Source: an uncultured Roseburia sp. (GTDB lineage: Bacteria; Bacillota; Clostridia; Lachnospirales; Lachnospiraceae). From it: a stretch of DNA of 55,710 bases. A program made the position numbers and the translations under genes. The stretch lies in NCBI GenBank assembly GCA_945787015.1, contig CALZGM010000023.1, positions 1 to 55,710 of the forward strand, written 5' to 3'. The notes below the pieces were generated by a model, which saw nothing but the letters and a program-made list of their open reading frames with translations, was not told the DNA's origin and ran no database searches. Positions 21,059 to 45,361 of this stretch are shown piece after piece (the stretch's first letter is position 1; each line of letters starts with the position of its first letter).

Positions 21059-23653
21059 TTATTCCCCTACAAGTTCCCCAAAAACTTTCAAGTACGCTTC
21101 TCTTTTTCCATCCTTAGTCACTACAACTGCTAAATCTTGTAAAAGTCCGCTTCCGCTCTCAAGGTGAATCCATCTATGCTCGCCAACCTGCACGCAGTTT
21201 ATAGTTTGAAATACCGTCGGGTCCCAGCCAAGCTGTTTTTCTTTTTCGCCAAAGTCGTTAAAAAGTTCAATTCCTTCTATATTGTATTCCTGCTTTGTCA
21301 GCGTCGCCGTTGTAAGGTCATACACATACATTTCCTTTTCCTGCAATGGATGGAGGTAGATCGTTTTTCCTGCACCATCAACCAACACCTCGCAATAGTT
21401 ATCTCCCTGCGTATAGTTACAGCCAATCAGTTCGAGCGCAACAGAGTCCAGCATCTTTTGTCCAATCCAGTCATAAATAAATAATCCCAAATAATTATGA
21501 AATACCACAATGTTCTCATCGGCATAATCTAAACTAGTCTCTGTAGCATCTATGGCTATGTCACTCTCTTCGTCATCAGCCTCGTAATAAGGAATTGCCG
21601 GATGCCCATATGAAATGGTTCTCACTTTCCGGTTCTTCCAGCTCGGGATTCCTTCCATGCTCTCTTCTATTTCAGTCCTTATATTTTCCGCAGTATATCT
21701 TTTGCTGTCATTTGCCGGCCCAACCCGTAGCACCCCATCCTGCGTGCTTAGCAAAAGCTTTGCGTCTGCAAGGTAGCTTTCCATCTTATACGCCCAAGCA
21801 AAAAACGCTTTCTCATCAAACGTTCCCGCTTCATAAGTATAGCTCATCTCGTCTGCTACAACTGCCGCGCTCTTTGGTCCTGCCAAATCTTCAAAATAAT
21901 AAACCATATAACTAAGGTTTCCGAAACCTTCGCGTATTTCGAAATCCAAATCAAATAAATAGTCCTTTTCTTCACCCTCCAGCAGATAAATATTGACCCA
22001 GCCAACACGGGAGGTATGTGCCTCAATACTGTATGGTTCATTCGCATCTTTGCTTTTTACTAATACCATACCACTGTCCCCATCTCCGGTGTTCCCGGTA
22101 TATACTTCCAGCACCTCATCAGTCAGCCCATTTTTATCTTCTGTGTGGTTTACATTTGCCTCATAGGAGTTCGCCAGGGTAAAATACTTATCCACACTAT
22201 ACGTTTCATAAAGACTATGGTCACGATACACCTTTGTTATTGATACCGCCATGTTATCTCCAAAATCCGTTTTCTCCGATTCCAAAACCGGAGCCTCCTC
22301 TGCTTCCGTTATGCTCTGTATCTGCCTGTTGATAAACTCCAATAGCTCCTCCGAATCCACAACGCGGTAAGAATAGCTCGGTTTCACGCCATCGTCATAC
22401 CACACTTCTGTCGCGTCCGCATCAAAGCAGAAGCAATCTGATTCTCCAATTCGAATCATTAATTCTGACGGGCGGTCTTCGGCACGGCTTTTCGAAATCG
22501 GATTTCGCTCAACCTTTACGTTTTCGAGAAAATCAATGAAAATCTCTCCATACGCCTCAGGAAATACGACAAACTTTGTTTCCAGTCCTTCCCCATGTAA
22601 AAGCGCCACTTCTACATTCCGATTTGCCGGGAATGCCACCTGTTCCACATCCCCGCTTCCTAAAGTTGTAACTGCATAGGTTTTTCCCAAAAAACCGGCA
22701 GCTACTACAACAATCAGCACAAGTGCCAGAGCAGTTACTCCCCAGACTGCTTTTTTATACTTCAAAATATTTTGAATTCTTCCCTTGGTGTTTCCCTCGC
22801 CAAAAGCCAATGGTGCATGAAAAAGCATCCCTTTGGGCGCTGATAGCTGCAGCAAGGCATTTGCATATTCAACTTTACTTTCCATGCCAAGCCTTGCCAC
22901 CGTTTCTTCATCGCAAGTCATCTCCATGTCCGTATTTAAAAACGTGAAAGCCACCCATGCAAGCGGATTAAACCAATGAATACAGGTAATTGTCAGTGCT
23001 GCCAGCTTCTTTAGTGGGTCGTGGCGTTTGATGTGCGTCGTTTCATGCGCAATCACGTAGGAAGCATGCTCTTTTTTCATATTGGACGGCAGATAAATCG
23101 CCGGCTTTATAAATCCCATTACAAATGCCGTCTCAATATCATCCGCATAATAGATATTTTCCTCCATCCATATGCTGCACAAAATCCGTTTTTTCAGCTT
23201 TCGATAAGAATAAATACTGTATCCGGTCAGCAGCAGCACTCCAAACAACCAGACCAGAAAAAGGCTTATGTACAAAAATTCAGATACCGCCATACTGTCA
23301 AGCGTTCCTGTCACGTTTTGACCAGTCATCACCTCTTCTGATATCACCTGCTGCGCCGGATTCATCATTTCCACAGAGAACTGTGTTGCTGGATCTACAT
23401 GCAGTAACATTTCTGTCTGCTCTGCTACATGCGACACTCCGCTAAACACCTTATCATCGCTTCCCCAGAAGCTGAAAGGCAGGCTGATTTTCCATGGGCA
23501 AATCATGCAGATATATGGCACCATCCACAAAAGCATGACATATTTCTTAGGAACATGTAATTTTGCAAACAGGTATCGTAAAAAGAGAACCACTGCAATT
23601 ACCACTGCTGCCTGAATGCTCATTGTTCCCAGACGAATCAAAAAAGCTTCCAT
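21059..23653 (-). CDS. BlaR1/MecR1-type M56 membrane metallopeptidase with a non-penicillin sensor region
   Basis: The protein has 864 residues. The N-terminal 300 residues have four transmembrane helices and a zinc protease site HETTH (about residue 204) with a downstream ETVARLG Glu, as in BlaR1. The last helix lies near 305-325. The remaining 540 residues are extracytoplasmic and do not contain the SxxK, SxN or KTG motifs of penicillin-binding sensors. A segment near 345-440 and a WD/six-bladed-like tail (IVVFHNYLGLFIYDWIGQKML, IYLHPLQEKEMYVYDL) are seen instead. It should sense an unknown extracellular cue and trigger cleavage of the BlaI-type repressor encoded 12 nt upstream. It is not evidence of beta-lactam resistance. 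Confidence 0.88.
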   Translation of the reverse strand: MEAFLIRLGTMSIQAAVVIAVVLFLRYLFAKLHVPKKYVMLLWMVPYICMICPWKISLPFSFWGSDDKVFSGVSHVAEQTEMLLHVDPATQFSVEMMNPAQQVISEEVMTGQNVTGTLDSMAVSEFLYISLFLVWLFGVLLLTGYSIYSYRKLKKRILCSIWMEENIYYADDIETAFVMGFIKPAIYLPSNMKKEHASYVIAHETTHIKRHDPLKKLAALTITCIHWFNPLAWVAFTFLNTDMEMTCDEETVARLGMESKVEYANALLQLSAPKGMLFHAPLAFGEGNTKGRIQNILKYKKAVWGVTALALVLIVVVAAGFLGKTYAVTTLGSGDVEQVAFPANRNVEVALLHGEGLETKFVVFPEAYGEIFIDFLENVKVERNPISKSRAEDRPSELMIRIGESDCFCFDADATEVWYDDGVKPSYSYRVVDSEELLEFINRQIQSITEAEEAPVLESEKTDFGDNMAVSITKVYRDHSLYETYSVDKYFTLANSYEANVNHTEDKNGLTDEVLEVYTGNTGDGDSGMVLVKSKDANEPYSIEAHTSRVGWVNIYLLEGEEKDYLFDLDFEIREGFGNLSYMVYYFEDLAGPKSAAVVADEMSYTYEAGTFDEKAFFAWAYKMESYLADAKLLLSTQDGVLRVGPANDSKRYTAENIRTEIEESMEGIPSWKNRKVRTISYGHPAIPYYEADDEESDIAIDATETSLDYADENIVVFHNYLGLFIYDWIGQKMLDSVALELIGCNYTQGDNYCEVLVDGAGKTIYLHPLQEKEMYVYDLTTATLTKQEYNIEGIELFNDFGEKEKQLGWDPTVFQTINCVQVGEHRWIHLESGSGLLQDLAVVVTKDGKREAYLKVFGELVGE

Positions 23654-36037: not shown

Positions 36038-36820
36038 TTACGGTAAATCTATAGCATCCTGTGGTGCAATGACTGTAAATGTGTTCAGCATTGCCCGAAA
36101 ACGCATTCCGGCTCCCTCTGTTGCTTCCATAAAATATCGAAGGATAATATGGTATGTCCCCTGCTGCCCATTTTTACAAAAATAATGCTCCTCGATAGCA
36201 GAGTCCCATGCAAAACCGGCATAAGCCTCATAATACAGGCGTGGTGGCTCTGTGCTACGCACTATTTCAGTAATGGTTTCCCAATCACCTTCCATTTGCT
36301 CCCTAGCCTCTTTCGCAGCAGTTTCAGGTAAAACATCCGGCAGTTCTATAATTACCATCTCAATCGCCGGAAGCAAAGAATCCGTCGCCTCAATTGGGCG
36401 GATATAGAAGATTCCCTCTTCTTCCGTCATAGTGTATTGTTCTGTATCCACATAAATAGCAAACCCCGGTGTATCAGCTTCCGGTTCTTTTCCTTGTGCC
36501 GAATGCGCTACTTCTTCCGTAAGACCTTCCGGTGTTATGGTAATCTCTTTTGGAGGAAATAGAATTTCAATCATCCTGGTTACCTGTTCCTGTACACGTT
36601 CTACGACTGCGGCCCCTGCCGGTGTCTGAAAGAACCATACACTCATAAGTGCAATGATTAATACCGCCACAAACCTGAGCATTTTTATCTGATATCTTCG
36701 TCTTTTTCTTGCAACGTGTGACTTCTTTTCTCGCTTTTTAAGTAAGGACTCCGGAGCCGCATTGACAATATATTTGTCATCTACCATACCGAATACATTT
36801 AAAAGTCGTTCTTCTTTCAT
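36038..36820 (-). CDS. Putative membrane anti-sigma factor (module B)
   Basis: A 260-residue single-pass protein with a very basic cytoplasmic stretch KKREKKSHVARKRRRYQIK before the helix (about 48-63), then an extracytoplasmic domain rich in acidic residues (ITITPEGLTEEVAH, EGIFYIRPIEAT). The first 45 residues, LNVFGMVDDKYIVNAAPESLL, are the probable sigma-binding part. Its ATG overlaps the sigma stop (ATGA). It resembles the module A anti-sigma in layout but not clearly in sequence. No zinc motif is seen. Confidence 0.72.
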   Translation of the reverse strand: MKEERLLNVFGMVDDKYIVNAAPESLLKKREKKSHVARKRRRYQIKMLRFVAVLIIALMSVWFFQTPAGAAVVERVQEQVTRMIEILFPPKEITITPEGLTEEVAHSAQGKEPEADTPGFAIYVDTEQYTMTEEEGIFYIRPIEATDSLLPAIEMVIIELPDVLPETAAKEAREQMEGDWETITEIVRSTEPPRLYYEAYAGFAWDSAIEEHYFCKNGQQGTYHIILRYFMEATEGAGMRFRAMLNTFTVIAPQDAIDLP

Positions 36821-37377
36821 AGTGCGATACCCTCCCCCTCCAAAAGCTGTTTCAGTTCATTTCTGGAACGTAACAGAGACATTTTCACTTTGCTTTCACT
36901 CATCTCAAAGTCTCTTGCAATTTCTTTAACGGAATTTAAATACCAGTAGCGGCGCATAAATATATTACGTCTTTCCTCTGACAATCCTGATAAGAACTGA
37001 TTGAAAATGTCAGCCAAACTCAAGTCATCAATTACCTGCTCCGTACTCACAGCAGACGGGATACACTCTTGTAACTCCTCTAGTACAAGCGGCACCTGAC
37101 CTGCGCTGCGCTTGTCTGCATTGTTATACTTGTATCGGTTTAGAGAAATATTACGTGCAATTTTACCGAGAAATGTCACCAGGCGGTTCGGACGGTGCGG
37201 CGGCATTGCTTCCCATGCCTTTAAGTAGGTGTCGTTTACACATTCTCTGCTGTCTTCCTCATCATACAGGATGTTGTAAGCTATATAATGGCAATATCTG
37301 CCATATTTTTTATCTGTTTCAGATATTGCAGTTTCGGAACGTTTCCAATACAAATCGATTATCTGTTTGTCGTCCAT
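36817..37377 (-). CDS. ECF-type RNA polymerase sigma factor (module B)
   Basis: A 186-residue sigma factor. Region 2 is YNILYDEEDSRECVNDTYLKAWEAMPP and region 4 is NSVKEIARDFEMSESKVKMSLLRSRNELKQLL. The start at 37377 is set by AAGGAG nine bases upstream. It is a paralogue of the module A sigma factor on the same strand, separated by the anti-sigma gene and 94 bp. A short leader hairpin precedes it. Confidence 0.9.
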   Translation of the reverse strand: MDDKQIIDLYWKRSETAISETDKKYGRYCHYIAYNILYDEEDSRECVNDTYLKAWEAMPPHRPNRLVTFLGKIARNISLNRYKYNNADKRSAGQVPLVLEELQECIPSAVSTEQVIDDLSLADIFNQFLSGLSEERRNIFMRRYWYLNSVKEIARDFEMSESKVKMSLLRSRNELKQLLEGEGIAL

Positions 37378-37398
37378 GACAGAAAACTCCTTTCTCAT

Positions 37399-37536: not shown

Positions 37537-37746
37537 TTATTGAATATCCGTCACCTGATAGCCCTGGTCGGTAACCGCTTGCTTTAGCACATCGTCTGAA
37601 ACATCCTTATCAAGTGTTACAACAGCAGTTCCGCTCTGATAACTAACCTCAGCCTTTGTCACACCATCAAGTGCTTCGAGAGCTTTTTTTGTGTGCATTT
37701 CGCAGTGTCCGCACATCATACCTTCGATTTTTAATGTCTTTTCCAT
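37537..37746 (-). CDS. copZ: Possible independently translated CopZ copper chaperone (internal start in copA)
   Basis: Within the copA frame, ATG at 37746 is preceded by AAAAGGAG with a 9-nt spacer, a perfect ribosome site. Translation from there gives a 69-residue protein MEKTLKIEGMMCGHCEMHT and onward, exactly the length and fold of free CopZ. The bases of the ribosome site encode the linker residues EKE. The stop codon that would normally end copA before this point is absent, so copZ looks fused to copA by loss of a stop while its own start was kept. Both long and short products may be made. Confidence 0.6.
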   Translation of the reverse strand: MEKTLKIEGMMCGHCEMHTKKALEALDGVTKAEVSYQSGTAVVTLDKDVSDDVLKQAVTDQGYQVTDIQ

Positions 37747-40065
37747 AGATTTTATCTCCTTTTCCGTTGTGGTTTTTAATTTATTTTTGATTTTATAATC
37801 CCGCTTGGAATCATGCATCCGAAAGAAATTCAAACGTAGTGCATTGGTGACTACACTAAAACTGGATAAACTCATGGCTGCCGCAGCGAACATTGGATTT
37901 AGCTGCCAGCCCAGCACACCGATAAATACGCCTGCCGCCAGCGGAATACCAATAATGTTGTAGATAAATGCCCAAAACAGGTTCTCATGAATATTGCGCA
38001 GCGTTGCACGACTCAAACGAATGGCTGCGGGAACATCGGACAGGCGGCTTTTCATCAGTACCACATCTGCTGCATCAATCGCAACATCTGCACCTGCACC
38101 AATGGCGACACCGATATCGGCACTTGTCAGTGCCGGAGCGTCATTGATGCCATCACCAACCATAATCACCTTTCCTTTTTGCTGCAGTTTACGGATTACG
38201 CTTTCCTTACCATCAGGAAGTACTCCGGCAATTACTTCATCCACACCTACCTTTGCCCCGATAGCTTTCGCTGTGCGCTCGTTATCTCCGGTCAGCATCA
38301 CTACATGGATGCCCATATTCTGCATTTCTTTCACTGCCTTGGGGCTGTCCTCTTTGATGGTATCCGCTACGGCAATGATACCGCAAAGCTCATCATCGCA
38401 GGCAAAAAACAATGGTGTCTTTCCTTCCTCCGAAAGCTGCTCGGACTTTGCTTTTATCTCATCCGACACCTGCATTTGTCCGCTGATAAACTGATAGCTG
38501 CCTCCATACAAAACCTTACCATCAAGAAATGCAGTTAGTCCGTTTCCCGGCAATGCTCTAAACTGCTCCACTTCTTCTGCTGTCAACCCAGTTTCACTGG
38601 CCCTTTGATTAATTGCCCGTGCCAGCGGGTGCTCACTTTTTTTCTCAAGCGCATAGGCTATTGACAATAGTTCTGTTTCGCTCCTGCCGTTTACCGGAAT
38701 TATATCCGTAACCTTTGGTTCTCCTCTGGTAATCGTTCCGGTCTTATCAAGTGCCACAATCTGTGTCTTTCCGGTTTCCTCCAAAGACACAGCCGTCTTG
38801 AAAAGAATTCCATTCTTTGCCCCCATTCCGTTACCCACCATGATGGCAACCGGAGTAGCAAGACCCAGCGCACACGGACAGCTAATCACCAATACGGAAA
38901 TGCCTCGTGCCAGGGCAAAACCTACTGTCTGTCCTGCGAGAAGCCATACAATAACCGTTATCACCGCAATTGTGATAACAGCAGGGACAAATACGCCTGA
39001 CACCTTGTCTGCAATCTTAGCAATCGGTGCTTTTGTTGCAGCCGCGTCGCTGACCATCTGAATAATTTGTGAGAGCGTAGTATCTTCCCCTACTCTTGTT
39101 GCTTCACAGCGTATATAGCCCGATTGATTCAATGTTCCTGCAGAAACCACACTCCCGGCTGCTTTGTCTACAGGAATACTCTCCCCTGTTAAAGTGGATT
39201 CATCTACTGCGCTGTTTCCATCTAAAACTGTTCCGTCCACAGGAATATTTTCACCGGGACGCACGACAAAGACATCACCTTTTTCTACCTGCTCGATTGG
39301 CACAGTTATTTCAGCACCATCCCGCAGAAGCGTGGCAGTCTTTGGAGCCAGTTTCATCAGACTCTTCAATGCATCGGTGGTTTTACCTTTTGAACGTGCC
39401 TCAAGCATTTTCCCTAAAGTTATCAGCGCAAGAATCGTGGCAGCAGATTCAAAGTAAAACTCGTGCATATAGGCCATCACTGCATCGGTATTGCCCTTAA
39501 CCTGCGCATCCGTCATGGCAAACAGCGCAAATGTACTGTAAATGAAAGCTGCCGCAGAGCCTAATGCGACCAATGCGTCCATATTCGGAGCGCGGTGCCA
39601 TAAGCTCTTAAATCCGCTAATAAAAAACTTCTGATTAATGACCATAATAACAACCGTTAGCAAAAGCTGCAAAAGTCCCATGGCCACATGATTGTCAGCA
39701 AAAAATGATGACAAAGGCCAGCCCCACATCATATGCCCCATGGAAACATACATAAGTACAATCCAAAAGCCCAAAGAGGTAATTAACCGTTTTTTCAATA
39801 CAGGAGTTTCCCTGTCTTTTAGTGCATCCTCGTCGGAGAATAACTGTGTATTTTGATTTTTATTTCCTTTTTTTTGCGCTGCTTCATATCCGGCATCACG
39901 AACTGCCGCTATGATTTCCTCGGCGGATGCAGTTCCCTCCACACCCATGGAATTGGTCAAAAGACTCACCGAACAAGAGGTTACTCCTTTCACACCCGAT
40001 ACCGCTTTTTCCACCCGCGCAGTACAGGCGGCACAGCTCATACCGGTTACTGTATATTGCTCCAT
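37537..40065 (-). CDS. copA: Copper-exporting P1B ATPase CopA with a fused C-terminal CopZ domain
   Basis: The protein has 842 residues. An N-terminal HMA domain has the Cu+ motif GMSCAAC. The P-type core shows TGES, the intramembrane CPC (ISCPCALGLATP), DKTGT phosphorylation Asp, HP in EHPLAR and GDGINDAP, and ends with MSLSSFSVVTNALRLNFF. A flexible linker (about 753-773) and a complete second HMA domain with GMMCGHC follow. CopA pumps Cu+ out of the cell. The fused domain would be the chaperone that delivers copper. It lies 21 nt downstream of csoR under the same promoter. A C-terminal HMA is uncommon; see the internal start entry. Confidence 0.95.
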   Translation of the reverse strand: MEQYTVTGMSCAACTARVEKAVSGVKGVTSCSVSLLTNSMGVEGTASAEEIIAAVRDAGYEAAQKKGNKNQNTQLFSDEDALKDRETPVLKKRLITSLGFWIVLMYVSMGHMMWGWPLSSFFADNHVAMGLLQLLLTVVIMVINQKFFISGFKSLWHRAPNMDALVALGSAAAFIYSTFALFAMTDAQVKGNTDAVMAYMHEFYFESAATILALITLGKMLEARSKGKTTDALKSLMKLAPKTATLLRDGAEITVPIEQVEKGDVFVVRPGENIPVDGTVLDGNSAVDESTLTGESIPVDKAAGSVVSAGTLNQSGYIRCEATRVGEDTTLSQIIQMVSDAAATKAPIAKIADKVSGVFVPAVITIAVITVIVWLLAGQTVGFALARGISVLVISCPCALGLATPVAIMVGNGMGAKNGILFKTAVSLEETGKTQIVALDKTGTITRGEPKVTDIIPVNGRSETELLSIAYALEKKSEHPLARAINQRASETGLTAEEVEQFRALPGNGLTAFLDGKVLYGGSYQFISGQMQVSDEIKAKSEQLSEEGKTPLFFACDDELCGIIAVADTIKEDSPKAVKEMQNMGIHVVMLTGDNERTAKAIGAKVGVDEVIAGVLPDGKESVIRKLQQKGKVIMVGDGINDAPALTSADIGVAIGAGADVAIDAADVVLMKSRLSDVPAAIRLSRATLRNIHENLFWAFIYNIIGIPLAAGVFIGVLGWQLNPMFAAAAMSLSSFSVVTNALRLNFFRMHDSKRDYKIKNKLKTTTEKEIKSMEKTLKIEGMMCGHCEMHTKKALEALDGVTKAEVSYQSGTAVVTLDKDVSDDVLKQAVTDQGYQVTDIQ

Positions 40066-43433: not shown

Positions 43434-44075
43434 TCAATGGAAGAAAATTGAACTATTCTTGAATATAGGTTTTATCACAAACGTCAGTATAACAAGCACC
43501 AGTCCGGCAACCAGCAGCCATAGTTTTCCCTCAAATACACCGGTGCTCATTCTAAATAAGAAAAACACCCCTAACTGCTTTTTTAAACCTAAATTACTTA
43601 GGTAGTAAATCATGGATACCAACATTCCATTGATTACATTCTTTGATACTCCGGCTGCAAAAAAGCCAATACTCCCCATAAAGAATGCTGATGTAATTCC
43701 TCCCCATACAACATAAATAGGCACACTGCATTCGTTCATCCTAAGGAACGCACAAAATGCACTGACAAAAAGGATAATAAAAAGAATGGCAATTAACAAT
43801 CTCATAATATAAATTGCATTCATACCAATTTTTCTGCCGGCTACAGAATCAAATATCGCGAGGTCCTGTTCCGGCAAAAAGATTGGAACCATTGTAATTG
43901 TCCCCAAAAAAGGAAGCAGCATTTCGACTGGTTTACAAACATCACTTCCCGTCAAACCTGCCGTTGGAAATAGTATCGCAGTAATTAAAAGCAGCATGAT
44001 ACATGCAATGAAAGGTATCTTAAAGAATATTAAGAGATTTATTTTGATGATTTTTCCTAATAATTTTAGATTCAA
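43434..44075 (-). CDS. ABC-2-like membrane protein, orphan
   Basis: A 213-residue protein with six hydrophobic helices and no soluble domain, resembling the permease half of ABC-2 type exporters. The loop PEQDLAIFDSVAGRKI after the second helix is typical of their fold. No ATPase gene lies next to it, and a truncated HTH gene starts just beside it on the other strand, so it may be a remnant of a larger ABC operon. The start is TTG at 44075, preceded by AAAGGAAG. Confidence 0.6.
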   Translation of the reverse strand: MNLKLLGKIIKINLLIFFKIPFIACIMLLLITAILFPTAGLTGSDVCKPVEMLLPFLGTITMVPIFLPEQDLAIFDSVAGRKIGMNAIYIMRLLIAILFIILFVSAFCAFLRMNECSVPIYVVWGGITSAFFMGSIGFFAAGVSKNVINGMLVSMIYYLSNLGLKKQLGVFFLFRMSTGVFEGKLWLLVAGLVLVILTFVIKPIFKNSSIFFH

Positions 44076-44100
44076 ACCGCATTCTTCCTTTCCTCTTTAA

Positions 44101-44877
44101 ATCATAAACAACGATGAGACAACCTATCAGAATCATACTAAAGCAGTAAGTCGATGGGAACGTGGCTTGGGATTTCCAGATATAAATACTCTTGAACCAT
44201 TGGCTGAGGCTTTGGGAGTAAGCGTTCTTGAACTAATGAACTCAGAAAAAATTGAAACAGAAGACATCCAATGTGAGGATGCTACGCTAATATTGAAAAA
44301 TACTATACAAGAGGCAAATAGTCAAAGGCTTCTAAACAAGAAACAATATAAAATGATTATCATTGGAATAGCCATCTTATTTTTGCTTATTAGTGTGCTG
44401 TTAATCTTTGTATTGACCCGTGGCAGATATGTTACCCTTATACAATGTGAAGATTTTACTAAGAGGGAACGTGTTGAAAGTATTCTTTCAAGGGAAGGAA
44501 TTCCATATAAGATATTATCAGATGATTTGACTGTTACAGTTTTGGATGCGCATTGTTCAAATGCAAACATGACTCTAGGGGCAAATAATATTAGGTGTGC
44601 CGCATATATAACAGATAATGATTTTCAAGCCGAAATAAAACTTAAAGATGATATCATAGCATGCTTTAACGAAATTAAGAATGCTAATGTTAATATTTAT
44701 ACACTCCCTAATGGGGAAAATAGTATAAGTATATTGTTAGAATTGAAAACGGATTTATCGGAAGAAAAGATAGAGTATTTGGTGGCTGCTGTTTCTGGAG
44801 CAACAGGAAGTAAAAATGCTGACAATATTGTAATTGTCGATACAGATGGGAATGTTCTTTATTCAAAAGATAGTTAA
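44101..44877 (+). pseudogene. N-terminally truncated XRE HTH - membrane protein with a FliF/YscJ-like ring-building domain
   Basis: The frame opens after a stop at 44098 and enters the HTH in the middle: NHTKAVSRWERGLGFPDINTLEPLAEALGVSVLELMNSE is the recognition helix and C-terminal half of an XRE domain. The first helices are missing, and no ATG or ribosome site precedes it; a TTG at 44167 is the only start. One transmembrane helix (MIIIGIAILFLLISVLLIFVL) follows. The C-terminal 140 residues have KRERVESILSREGIPYKILSDD and, at the end, ELKTDLSEEKIEYLVAAVSGA then NIVIVDTDGNVLY. These are strikingly like the ring-building motifs of FliF/YscJ. Convergent with NUDIX. Confidence 0.65.
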
Positions 44878-44901
44878 AAGGCTGCCCACGAGAGTAGCCT
44901 T
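44878..44901. terminator. Bidirectional terminator between the HTH fragment and NUDIX gene
   Basis: AAGGCT / AGCCTT arms with a 12-nt loop and T/A-rich flanks on both sides (TTAATTTTATT on plus, TTTTAAC on minus). Confidence 0.6.
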
Positions 44902-44905
44902 AATT

Positions 44906-45361
44906 TTATTTATTCTCTACATTCCATTCACCGTTTGTGAACCAATGATAATTCTCTGATAACTTATCATTCTCGAATACTTCAAACATTCCTTCAAATC
45001 CTTCTGCAAGAACATAGTTCTTTAAGTCCTCTTTCTCAATCCAAAATACCCTTCCCTCATCGGATGACTTTAGTTCCCCGGAATAGGTATCCGTTTTATA
45101 GAATAAAACGATATAGCGGTATTTGCCTTCTCTATGAGTCCACTGCTTTATACCGCAAAGCTGTACATTTGAAATTTTAAGTCCCGTTTCTTCCTCGACT
45201 TCTCTTATAACAGAATCAACAAATGACTCCCCCGGTTCTACATGACCTCCCGGGAATGTAATTCCCGGCCAATCCGGATTCATTCTATCTTGTACCAGTA
45301 TGCGATTTCCATCATATACCATACACATGTTCGTTAAAATACATTTCTCTTCTCGTGCCAT
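44906..45361 (-). CDS. NUDIX hydrolase (MutT/8-oxo-dGTP-type)
   Basis: A 151-residue protein with a complete Nudix box, GGHVEPGESFVDSVIREVEEETGL (Gly-x5-Glu-x7-Arg-Glu-x-x-Glu-Glu-x-Gly). It hydrolyses nucleoside diphosphate-linked compounds in the cytoplasm; the length and box position fit the MutT-like family that cleans oxidised dNTPs, but substrates vary. CGAGG lies eight bases before the ATG. The decayed MazG-like gene directly upstream may once have formed a nucleotide-cleaning pair with it. Confidence 0.88.
   Translation of the reverse strand: MAREEKCILTNMCMVYDGNRILVQDRMNPDWPGITFPGGHVEPGESFVDSVIREVEEETGLKISNVQLCGIKQWTHREGKYRYIVLFYKTDTYSGELKSSDEGRVFWIEKEDLKNYVLAEGFEGMFEVFENDKLSENYHWFTNGEWNVENK

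Follow-up and report, generated by a model that had tools for sequence, protein, structure and literature searches.

A rare, mobile Roseburia gene joins an XRE-type DNA-binding domain to a membrane-anchored, FliF-like ectodomain

Analysis of a 55,710-nucleotide stretch of DNA from an uncultured Roseburia sp. (the window) revealed an open frame at positions 44101 to 44877 of the forward strand. The frame directly follows an in-frame TAA that ends at 44100 and closes with a TAA at 44875 to 44877, which agrees with the coordinates in the first-pass annotation of this DNA. The first in-frame ATG, GTG, or TTG is a TTG at 44167. The locus contains the following features, where HTH is helix-turn-helix, TM is transmembrane helix, and RBM is ring-building motif.

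43434..44075, minus strand: neighboring membrane protein, permease-like by reading, with a TTG start; no Pfam or NCBIfam match
44101..44877, plus strand: open frame between two stops (frame translation)
44140..44874, plus strand: fragment homologous to codons 33 to 277 of the intact HTH-TM-FliF genes (blastn, alignments)
44140..44235, plus strand: remaining half of an XRE HTH, codons 33 to 64, the first helices lost (alignment with the intact proteins)
44236..44352, plus strand: cytoplasmic linker, codons 65 to 103 (alignment with the G424 and G430 proteins)
44353..44418, plus strand: single TM, corresponding to FliF TM1 (hydropathy, alignment with FliF)
44419..44613, plus strand: FliF-like RBM1 (two stretches of Pfam YscJ_FliF, FliF alignment; domain edge set by hand)
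44614..44874, plus strand: FliF-like RBM2, directly after RBM1 (best Pfam YscJ_FliF stretch at 164 to 232 of the open frame)
44906..45361, minus strand: neighboring NUDIX hydrolase (Pfam NUDIX, 4.5e-19)

The permease-like neighbor has no adjoining ATPase gene, and matches to it were found in 12 of 62 genomes of the genus, its own included.

The frame had been read as the remainder of an XRE HTH, one TM, and a FliF/YscJ-like outer domain in one gene, and profile searches bear this out. Pfam YscJ_FliF matched the window protein in two stretches (E 4.3e-16; 59.7 bits, cut-off 24.4), and hydropathy gave one strongly hydrophobic helix as the only TM-like stretch. NCBIfam fliF reached 25.9 bits (E 4.4e-6), far under its cut-off of 129.75. 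Even at an E threshold of 10, the HTH remainder was too short to match any HTH model of Pfam.

Comparison with intact relatives revealed that the window copy is truncated. The intact gene of genome G400 matched the window in blastn with 86% nucleotide identity over 44140 to 44882, with both ends sharp and no further significant match of the window to the flanks of that gene. Homology starts at 44140, which is codon 33 of the intact gene, in line with the earlier view that the first HTH helices were lost. The promoter, the start codon, and the first 32 codons are missing, and the stop arrives three codons early, at the cost of the last 3 codons. The 5' loss looks recent, because the copy has no internal stop or frameshift. 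The window copy is most likely a decapitated, nonfunctional fragment that has lost its promoter and half of its HTH. The sharp ends of homology on both sides and the draft state of the genome (59 contigs) would also suit an assembly artifact that joins two unrelated pieces. However, the fragment differs by about 14 to 16% in its DNA from the two other known copies and is thus a sequence of its own, and a search of the window's genome (G000), run without a positive control, did not turn up the missing 5' part at another place. We regard an artifact as very improbable.

To find the architecture elsewhere, 62 genomes of the genus were searched, some of which are less than 70% complete. The HTH-TM-FliF architecture or a remnant of it was present in 3 of them (G000, G400, and G416), and the other 59 gave no such gene. 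The G400 and G416 copies are intact genes encoding 280 amino acids, with 80% and 77% identity to the window protein, respectively, and with the layout HTH_3, linker, TM, and RBM1-RBM2. Both come from metagenome-assembled genomes (MAGs): a contig search located the G400 copy on JAETOE010000001.1, in a MAG filed as Roseburia hominis, and the G416 copy on JAGBEG010000010.1, in the MAG Roseburia sp. RGIG9039. Full-length homologues do carry the HTH that the first-pass annotation expected of them. HTH_3 covered residues 11 to 64 of the two intact proteins (E 1.9e-13 and 7.1e-13) and was complete in both (50.6 and 48.8 bits; cut-off 23). YscJ_FliF scored 46.8 and 41.2 bits (cut-off 24.4), while NCBIfam fliF gave 15.7 bits for the G400 protein and no listed match for the G416 protein (cut-off 129.75). 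Besides the HTH models and YscJ_FliF, no Pfam model matched the fusion proteins above its cut-off. The HTH is followed by a single hydrophobic stretch at about residues 104 to 124, placed by hydropathy only, and the same analysis showed no second one. Judged by their sequences, the intact proteins consist of an XRE HTH (residues 1 to 64), a linker (residues 65 to 103), one TM, and a FliF-derived RBM1-RBM2 region. The idea of such a fusion stands, because homology to ring-building motifs is present and full-length relatives carry the HTH.

Wider searches returned longer, FliF-sized frames. Among the FliF-side matches listed for 397 genomes of the family, the window apart, frames had 392 to 571 amino acids; the 392-amino-acid frame runs off its contig, and this search scored only some of the candidates in each genome. 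The order-level search (392 genomes) gave matches in 48, with frames of 535 to 551 amino acids apart from the window. Pfam YscJ_FliF matches occurred in 209 of the 397 family genomes, and the frames among the matches listed had 392 to 593 amino acids. Several candidates for further fusions were rejected. Second YscJ_FliF matches in G208, G315, G367, and G399 are SpoIIIAG-like (106 to 125 bits, under the model cut-off of 147.7), and a third match in G416 looks SpoIIIAG-like by eye. Also by eye, the candidates in G410 and on G000:C11 are HTH-TM proteins with other outer domains, that in G042 combines an HTH with a hydrophobic C-terminus, and that in G453 is a FliF cut by a contig end.

No relative was found in the viral contigs, plasmids, or phages searched. 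A scan of genome contigs with the window protein gave nothing although the collection includes two relatives, so such scans miss relatives. Solved structures yielded only one FliF chain, at a marginal E of 0.017, followed by chance kinases. The PADLOC matches of the intact protein cover the HTH and linker, as do the best 25 of its 35 PHROG matches. The window copy had no PADLOC match; of its two PHROG matches, the one in the ectodomain is weak (E 0.033) and the other lies in what remains of the HTH. The gene was therefore rejected as defense, phage, or plasmid cargo, since the PADLOC matches and the best 25 PHROG matches of the intact protein concern its HTH and linker and the viral contigs, plasmids, and phages searched gave no relative.

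The nearest relatives of the HTH half belong to Lachnospiraceae HTH_3 proteins of about 190 to 200 amino acids with a hydrophobic, multi-TM-looking C-terminus, for which no family name was found. Residues 1 to 101 of the G416 protein, comprising the HTH and linker, share 75% and 71% identity with the closest two of these, the HTH proteins of two other Roseburia genomes, G424 and G430. Both have 200 amino acids, and their other half is hydrophobic and unrelated to the fusion, in which one TM and FliF RBM1-RBM2 take the place of that membrane half. A small tree (12 rows) grouped the fusions with the G424 and G430 HTH proteins with weak support. HTH-TM proteins with different outer parts also lie at L176 985-1668 (G410:C29) and L002 709-1998 (G000:C11), which indicates that this type of HTH has been joined to several membrane halves in the genus.

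Upstream of the intact genes, two putative boxes were predicted, box 1 (GTAAACGATTCGTAGAG) near -98 and box 2 (GTAAACGATACATCGGTTG) near -65 from the ATG. Both are kept in G400, G416, G424, and G430 within 0 to 1 mismatch of the patterns used, and the two nearest HTH_3 proteins share the predicted double-box and promoter layout of the fusion. Across nine upstream regions, each box occurred in 5 at 0 to 1 mismatch and was equaled by 0 of 500 mononucleotide shuffles, the patterns having been drawn from the very sequences on which they were scored. The other five of the nine regions had a site with at most 1 mismatch once for box 1 and once for box 2; the rest had 3 to 6 mismatches. Box 1 also precedes the HTH genes of G388 and G090, and box 2 precedes that of G223. 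In G434, the site reads GTAAACGA-A-TCGTTTAC, nearly a palindrome, and differs from box 1 at three positions. A predicted, TTG-like -35 element lies at the end of box 2 (2 to 5 of 6 positions fit), and a predicted -10 element with 4 to 5 of 6 matches follows 17 nt on in 7 of the 8 upstream regions that contain TCGGTT, a count made without a shuffle control. The layout of the double box and promoter would be one of autorepression.

A search of six genomes at up to 1 mismatch found the boxes once each in G400, G416, G424, and G430, always before the gene itself, and gave no match in G000 or G434; matches with 3 mismatches were at control level. The box search for a regulon was set aside: of five weaker sites examined, four lie inside coding frames and the fifth is the palindrome upstream of the G434 gene itself. 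In the 397 family genomes, box 1 at up to 1 mismatch had 9 matches against 8 for the reversed control, which is no excess. Two of the 9 precede HTH genes of the same family (G388 and G090), 1 precedes an unrelated gene, and 6 lie inside open frames, two of which are at the same time 103 nt ahead of a further frame. The match before the unrelated gene reproduces box 1 exactly and is positioned 100 nt before a frame of 229 amino acids in another genus (L169 1501; G139:C23:32882).

From the TM onward, the fusion aligns with TM1, RBM1, and RBM2 of FliF in the same order. Among the matches listed, the nearest FliF is that of G037, from another genus of the family, with up to 45% identity to residues 80 to 253 of the window query; it is 35% identical to the G416 protein over a longer alignment. 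The FliF proteins of the host genomes are 23 to 26% identical to the ectodomain. In a tree of 47 rows, the three fusions grouped together (100/100) on a branch of 1.53, beside the G037 FliF (85/79); the placement beside this FliF is tentative because of the long fusion branch. The AU test rejected a grouping of the three fusions with the Roseburia FliFs of four genomes, G000, G399, G400, and G416 (p 0.019), and did not reject the fusions within a wider clade of 14 rows (p 0.099), both groups having been named after the tree was seen. The low identity to the host FliFs and the rejection of the Roseburia clade argue against an origin from the host's own FliF and make a non-host FliF the likely donor of the ectodomain.

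The ectodomain has lost much of what FliF proteins share. Forty-six alignment columns are at least 90% conserved in 44 FliFs; 13 of these persist in all three fusions, and deletions remove 15. Gap analysis revealed three segments that are filled in 44 of 44 FliFs and empty in 3 of 3 fusions: nine columns ahead of TM1, where the HTH linker joins; the 17-residue linker between RBM1 and RBM2; and an 8-residue loop inside RBM2. RBM3, the second TM, and the C-terminal tail are also absent, and the protein ends after RBM2.

Comparison with known systems revealed partial likeness to several of them. The N-terminal half of FliF has TM1, RBM1, and RBM2 in the order of the fusion, whereas the fusion begins with an HTH and linker instead of the N-terminus of FliF and is devoid of RBM3, the second TM, the tail, the 17-residue linker, and the 8-residue loop; it is not a FliF. 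SctJ/YscJ/PrgK/EscJ, of the type III secretion inner ring, resemble the fusion in having two ring-building motifs only. SctJ/YscJ-type proteins have a lipoprotein N-terminus where the fusion has an HTH and TM, and NCBIfam III_secr_YscJ matched neither the window protein at E up to 10 nor the intact proteins at E up to 1. RodZ and ToxR/CadC-type regulators share with the fusion an N-terminal DNA-binding-type domain, one TM, and an outer domain. The Pfam lists of the intact proteins contained no RodZ or ToxR/CadC-type models. SpoIIIAG is reported to have a related RBM fold (PMC8786727), but unlike the fusion it lacks an HTH; the proposed comparison with SpoIIIAG profiles gave no match of NCBIfam spore_III_AG to the window or intact proteins. 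The earlier remark that such a fusion was not known as a described family agrees with the scans of Pfam, NCBIfam, PHROGs, and PADLOC, which found none with the HTH-TM-FliF architecture. No report of an HTH-FliF fusion or of membrane XRE regulators was found in the open-access literature searched.

The fusion gene is positioned between rsfS and lexA in G400 and G416, which answers the question raised earlier of what flanks full-length homologues. It is not part of a flagellar operon in G400, G416, or the window, and fliF followed by fliG is present in all three host genomes. Thirty rsfS loci were fetched from the 52 genomes with rsfS. In 24 of them, G000 included, lexA is near rsfS and nothing matches the fusion gene; one (G400) shows it; and five, including G416, end before lexA. 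The fragment in G000 thus sits elsewhere. Between G000 and G400, fliF, fliG, topA, codY, and rsfS differ at 77 to 90% of synonymous sites and the fusion differs at 30%. Between G400 and G416, dS is 0.54 to 0.79 for fliF, fliG, topA, and codY and 0.25 for the fusion. The synonymous divergence of the fusion, far under that of the core genes, indicates that the gene moved horizontally.

A 38-nt hairpin (CAGAGAGC...GGCTCTCTG) occurs with up to 3 mismatches at two places each in G400 (L047) and G416 (L048), one following rsfS and the other following the fusion gene; none was found in G000 or G399. The pair looks like a duplicated terminator bracketing an insert. In G416, the hairpin pair also encloses, between rsfS and the fusion gene, what by eye are a response regulator, a histidine kinase, an ABC ATPase, and a large permease (L048 3948-8753).

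To study selection, nonsynonymous and synonymous changes were counted and rounded for Fisher tests. Over the 103 codons of HTH and linker, G400 and G416 differ by 13 synonymous changes and 2 nonsynonymous ones (odds ratio 30, p 5e-8). Codons 33 to 103 contained 10 synonymous changes and no nonsynonymous change, and codons 1 to 32 contained 3 and 2, respectively. RBM1 and RBM2 together showed about 27 synonymous and 46 nonsynonymous changes. The nonsynonymous density differs between the HTH half and the ectodomain (p 2e-9), whereas the synonymous density does not (p 0.46), and dN is 0.12 to 0.17 in the ectodomain against about 0.01 in the HTH half. Constraint on the ectodomain was significant in each of the three pairs (odds ratios 2.3, 2.5, and 3.0; p 0.0036, 0.0012, and 0.00004). 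Between G400 and G416, RBM2 alone was constrained (p 0.004), and no significant constraint was detected for RBM1 alone (p 0.31) or for the 22 codons of the TM (5 nonsynonymous and 1 synonymous change, p 1.0). There is no sign of positive selection overall, because dN/dS of RBM1 and RBM2 is below 1 in all three pairs. The DNA-binding half hardly changes, and the ectodomain evolves fast yet under constraint. The gene is a real, unusual domain fusion that is rare and mobile and evolves under selection.

Published work on ring-building motifs bears on what the ectodomain might do. According to PMC8786727, RBM2 and RBM3 of Salmonella FliF assemble into rings on their own, an RBM1-RBM2 construct is monomeric, added RBM3 promotes its oligomerization, and the linker controls assembly in SctJ and seems not critical for oligomerization in FliF. 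PMC10198558 describes RBM1 as paired with the outer RBM2. A ring-forming exterior, as first proposed for the protein, is not supported by these comparisons, given the absence of RBM3, the deletion of the linker and RBM2 loop, and the monomeric Salmonella RBM1-RBM2. Linker loss alone does not exclude rings, since the FliF linker is described as not critical; a ring-forming exterior is unproven, because the fusions are without a linker and loop common to all 44 FliFs.

We propose, with a probability of about one half, that the intact protein is a chimeric, horizontally moving, membrane-tethered autoregulator in which a repurposed FliF ectodomain controls the oligomeric state of the HTH. The topology would be that of FliF, placing the HTH on the cytoplasmic side of the membrane and the RBMs on its outer side. 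The two predicted boxes before the gene would be bound by HTH dimers, and the protein would repress its own promoter, as suggested by the -35 element predicted at the end of the downstream box. Having lost RBM3, linker, and loop and with them its role in the MS ring, the ectodomain would set whether the tethered HTHs are monomers or dimers/oligomers in response to something outside the membrane, and this state would determine the strength of repression. By analogy with the reported monomeric RBM1-RBM2 (PMC8786727), an HTH tethered to such an ectodomain might by default be a monomer that can be opened. Alternatively, the missing linker could bring the chains into forced contact.

Three other readings share parts of this evidence. 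The ectodomain may be a receptor for an external ligand, in which the FliF fold now offers a rapidly changing surface that binds a peptide, a phage, or an envelope signal, as part of an ordinary one-component sensor. The high dN of the ectodomain at a synonymous density like that of the HTH half would suit such a surface, as would the horizontal spread and the HTH relatives that pair a similar HTH with another membrane half, but the dN/dS values below 1 speak against it; we consider this reading possible but doubtful. Little or no use to the host would be expected if the gene were a selfish or neutral chimera, autoregulated, spreading, and decaying as in the window. Its sporadic occurrence (3 of 62 genomes), the truncation of the window copy on both sides, and the different location in G000 are consistent with this, whereas the strong purifying selection on the HTH half, the significant constraint on the ectodomain, and the lack of a relative among the viral contigs, plasmids, and phages searched make it improbable.

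The remaining reading assigns the protein to flagellar assembly. As the MS ring assembles, RBM3 of the host FliF would open a monomeric RBM1-RBM2 ectodomain, and the protein would report the assembly to the DNA. The domain order of the FliF N-terminal half, the fliF-fliG pair in every host, and the reported oligomerization of RBM1-RBM2 by RBM3 (PMC8786727) agree with such a sensor, and two-component systems are reported to couple flagellar assembly to transcription in polar flagellates (PMC7064773). However, the host FliFs have little identity to the ectodomain, the RBM1-RBM2 linker and RBM2 loop are gone, the search returned no such gene for 59 of the 62 genus genomes, and none of the five weaker box sites examined precedes a flagellar gene. 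A specific link to the host MS ring is possible, and a sensor of this kind is unlikely. Its fullest form, in which the ectodomain is an RBM3-releasable lock on a tethered transcription factor and thereby a one-protein MS-ring checkpoint that works without a two-component relay and spreads horizontally among gut Roseburia, is a long shot.

The fusion is an example of a core module of the flagellar ring taken out of FliF and joined to a DNA-binding protein. If the ectodomain of the proposed autoregulator still switches between monomer and oligomer, the protein would be a minimal natural system that reads RBM assembly as promoter activity, and the coupling of MS-ring assembly to transcription would become testable in one protein.

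Further observations were made in the course of the searches. In G399, a single-contig Roseburia genome, fliF is split into a 242-amino-acid RBM1-RBM2 part and a 264-amino-acid part in another frame (L049 6010-6738 and 6834-7628; G399:C1, about 1529010-1530630). The frame breaks at a CT-dinucleotide run, and the split could be phase variation or a sequencing error. Elsewhere in the window, a BlaR1-type M56 protein (21059-23653), a sigma-70 region 2/4 protein adjoining a gene with no Pfam match (36038-37398), and a heavy-metal P-type ATPase (37537-40065) are ordinary by Pfam.
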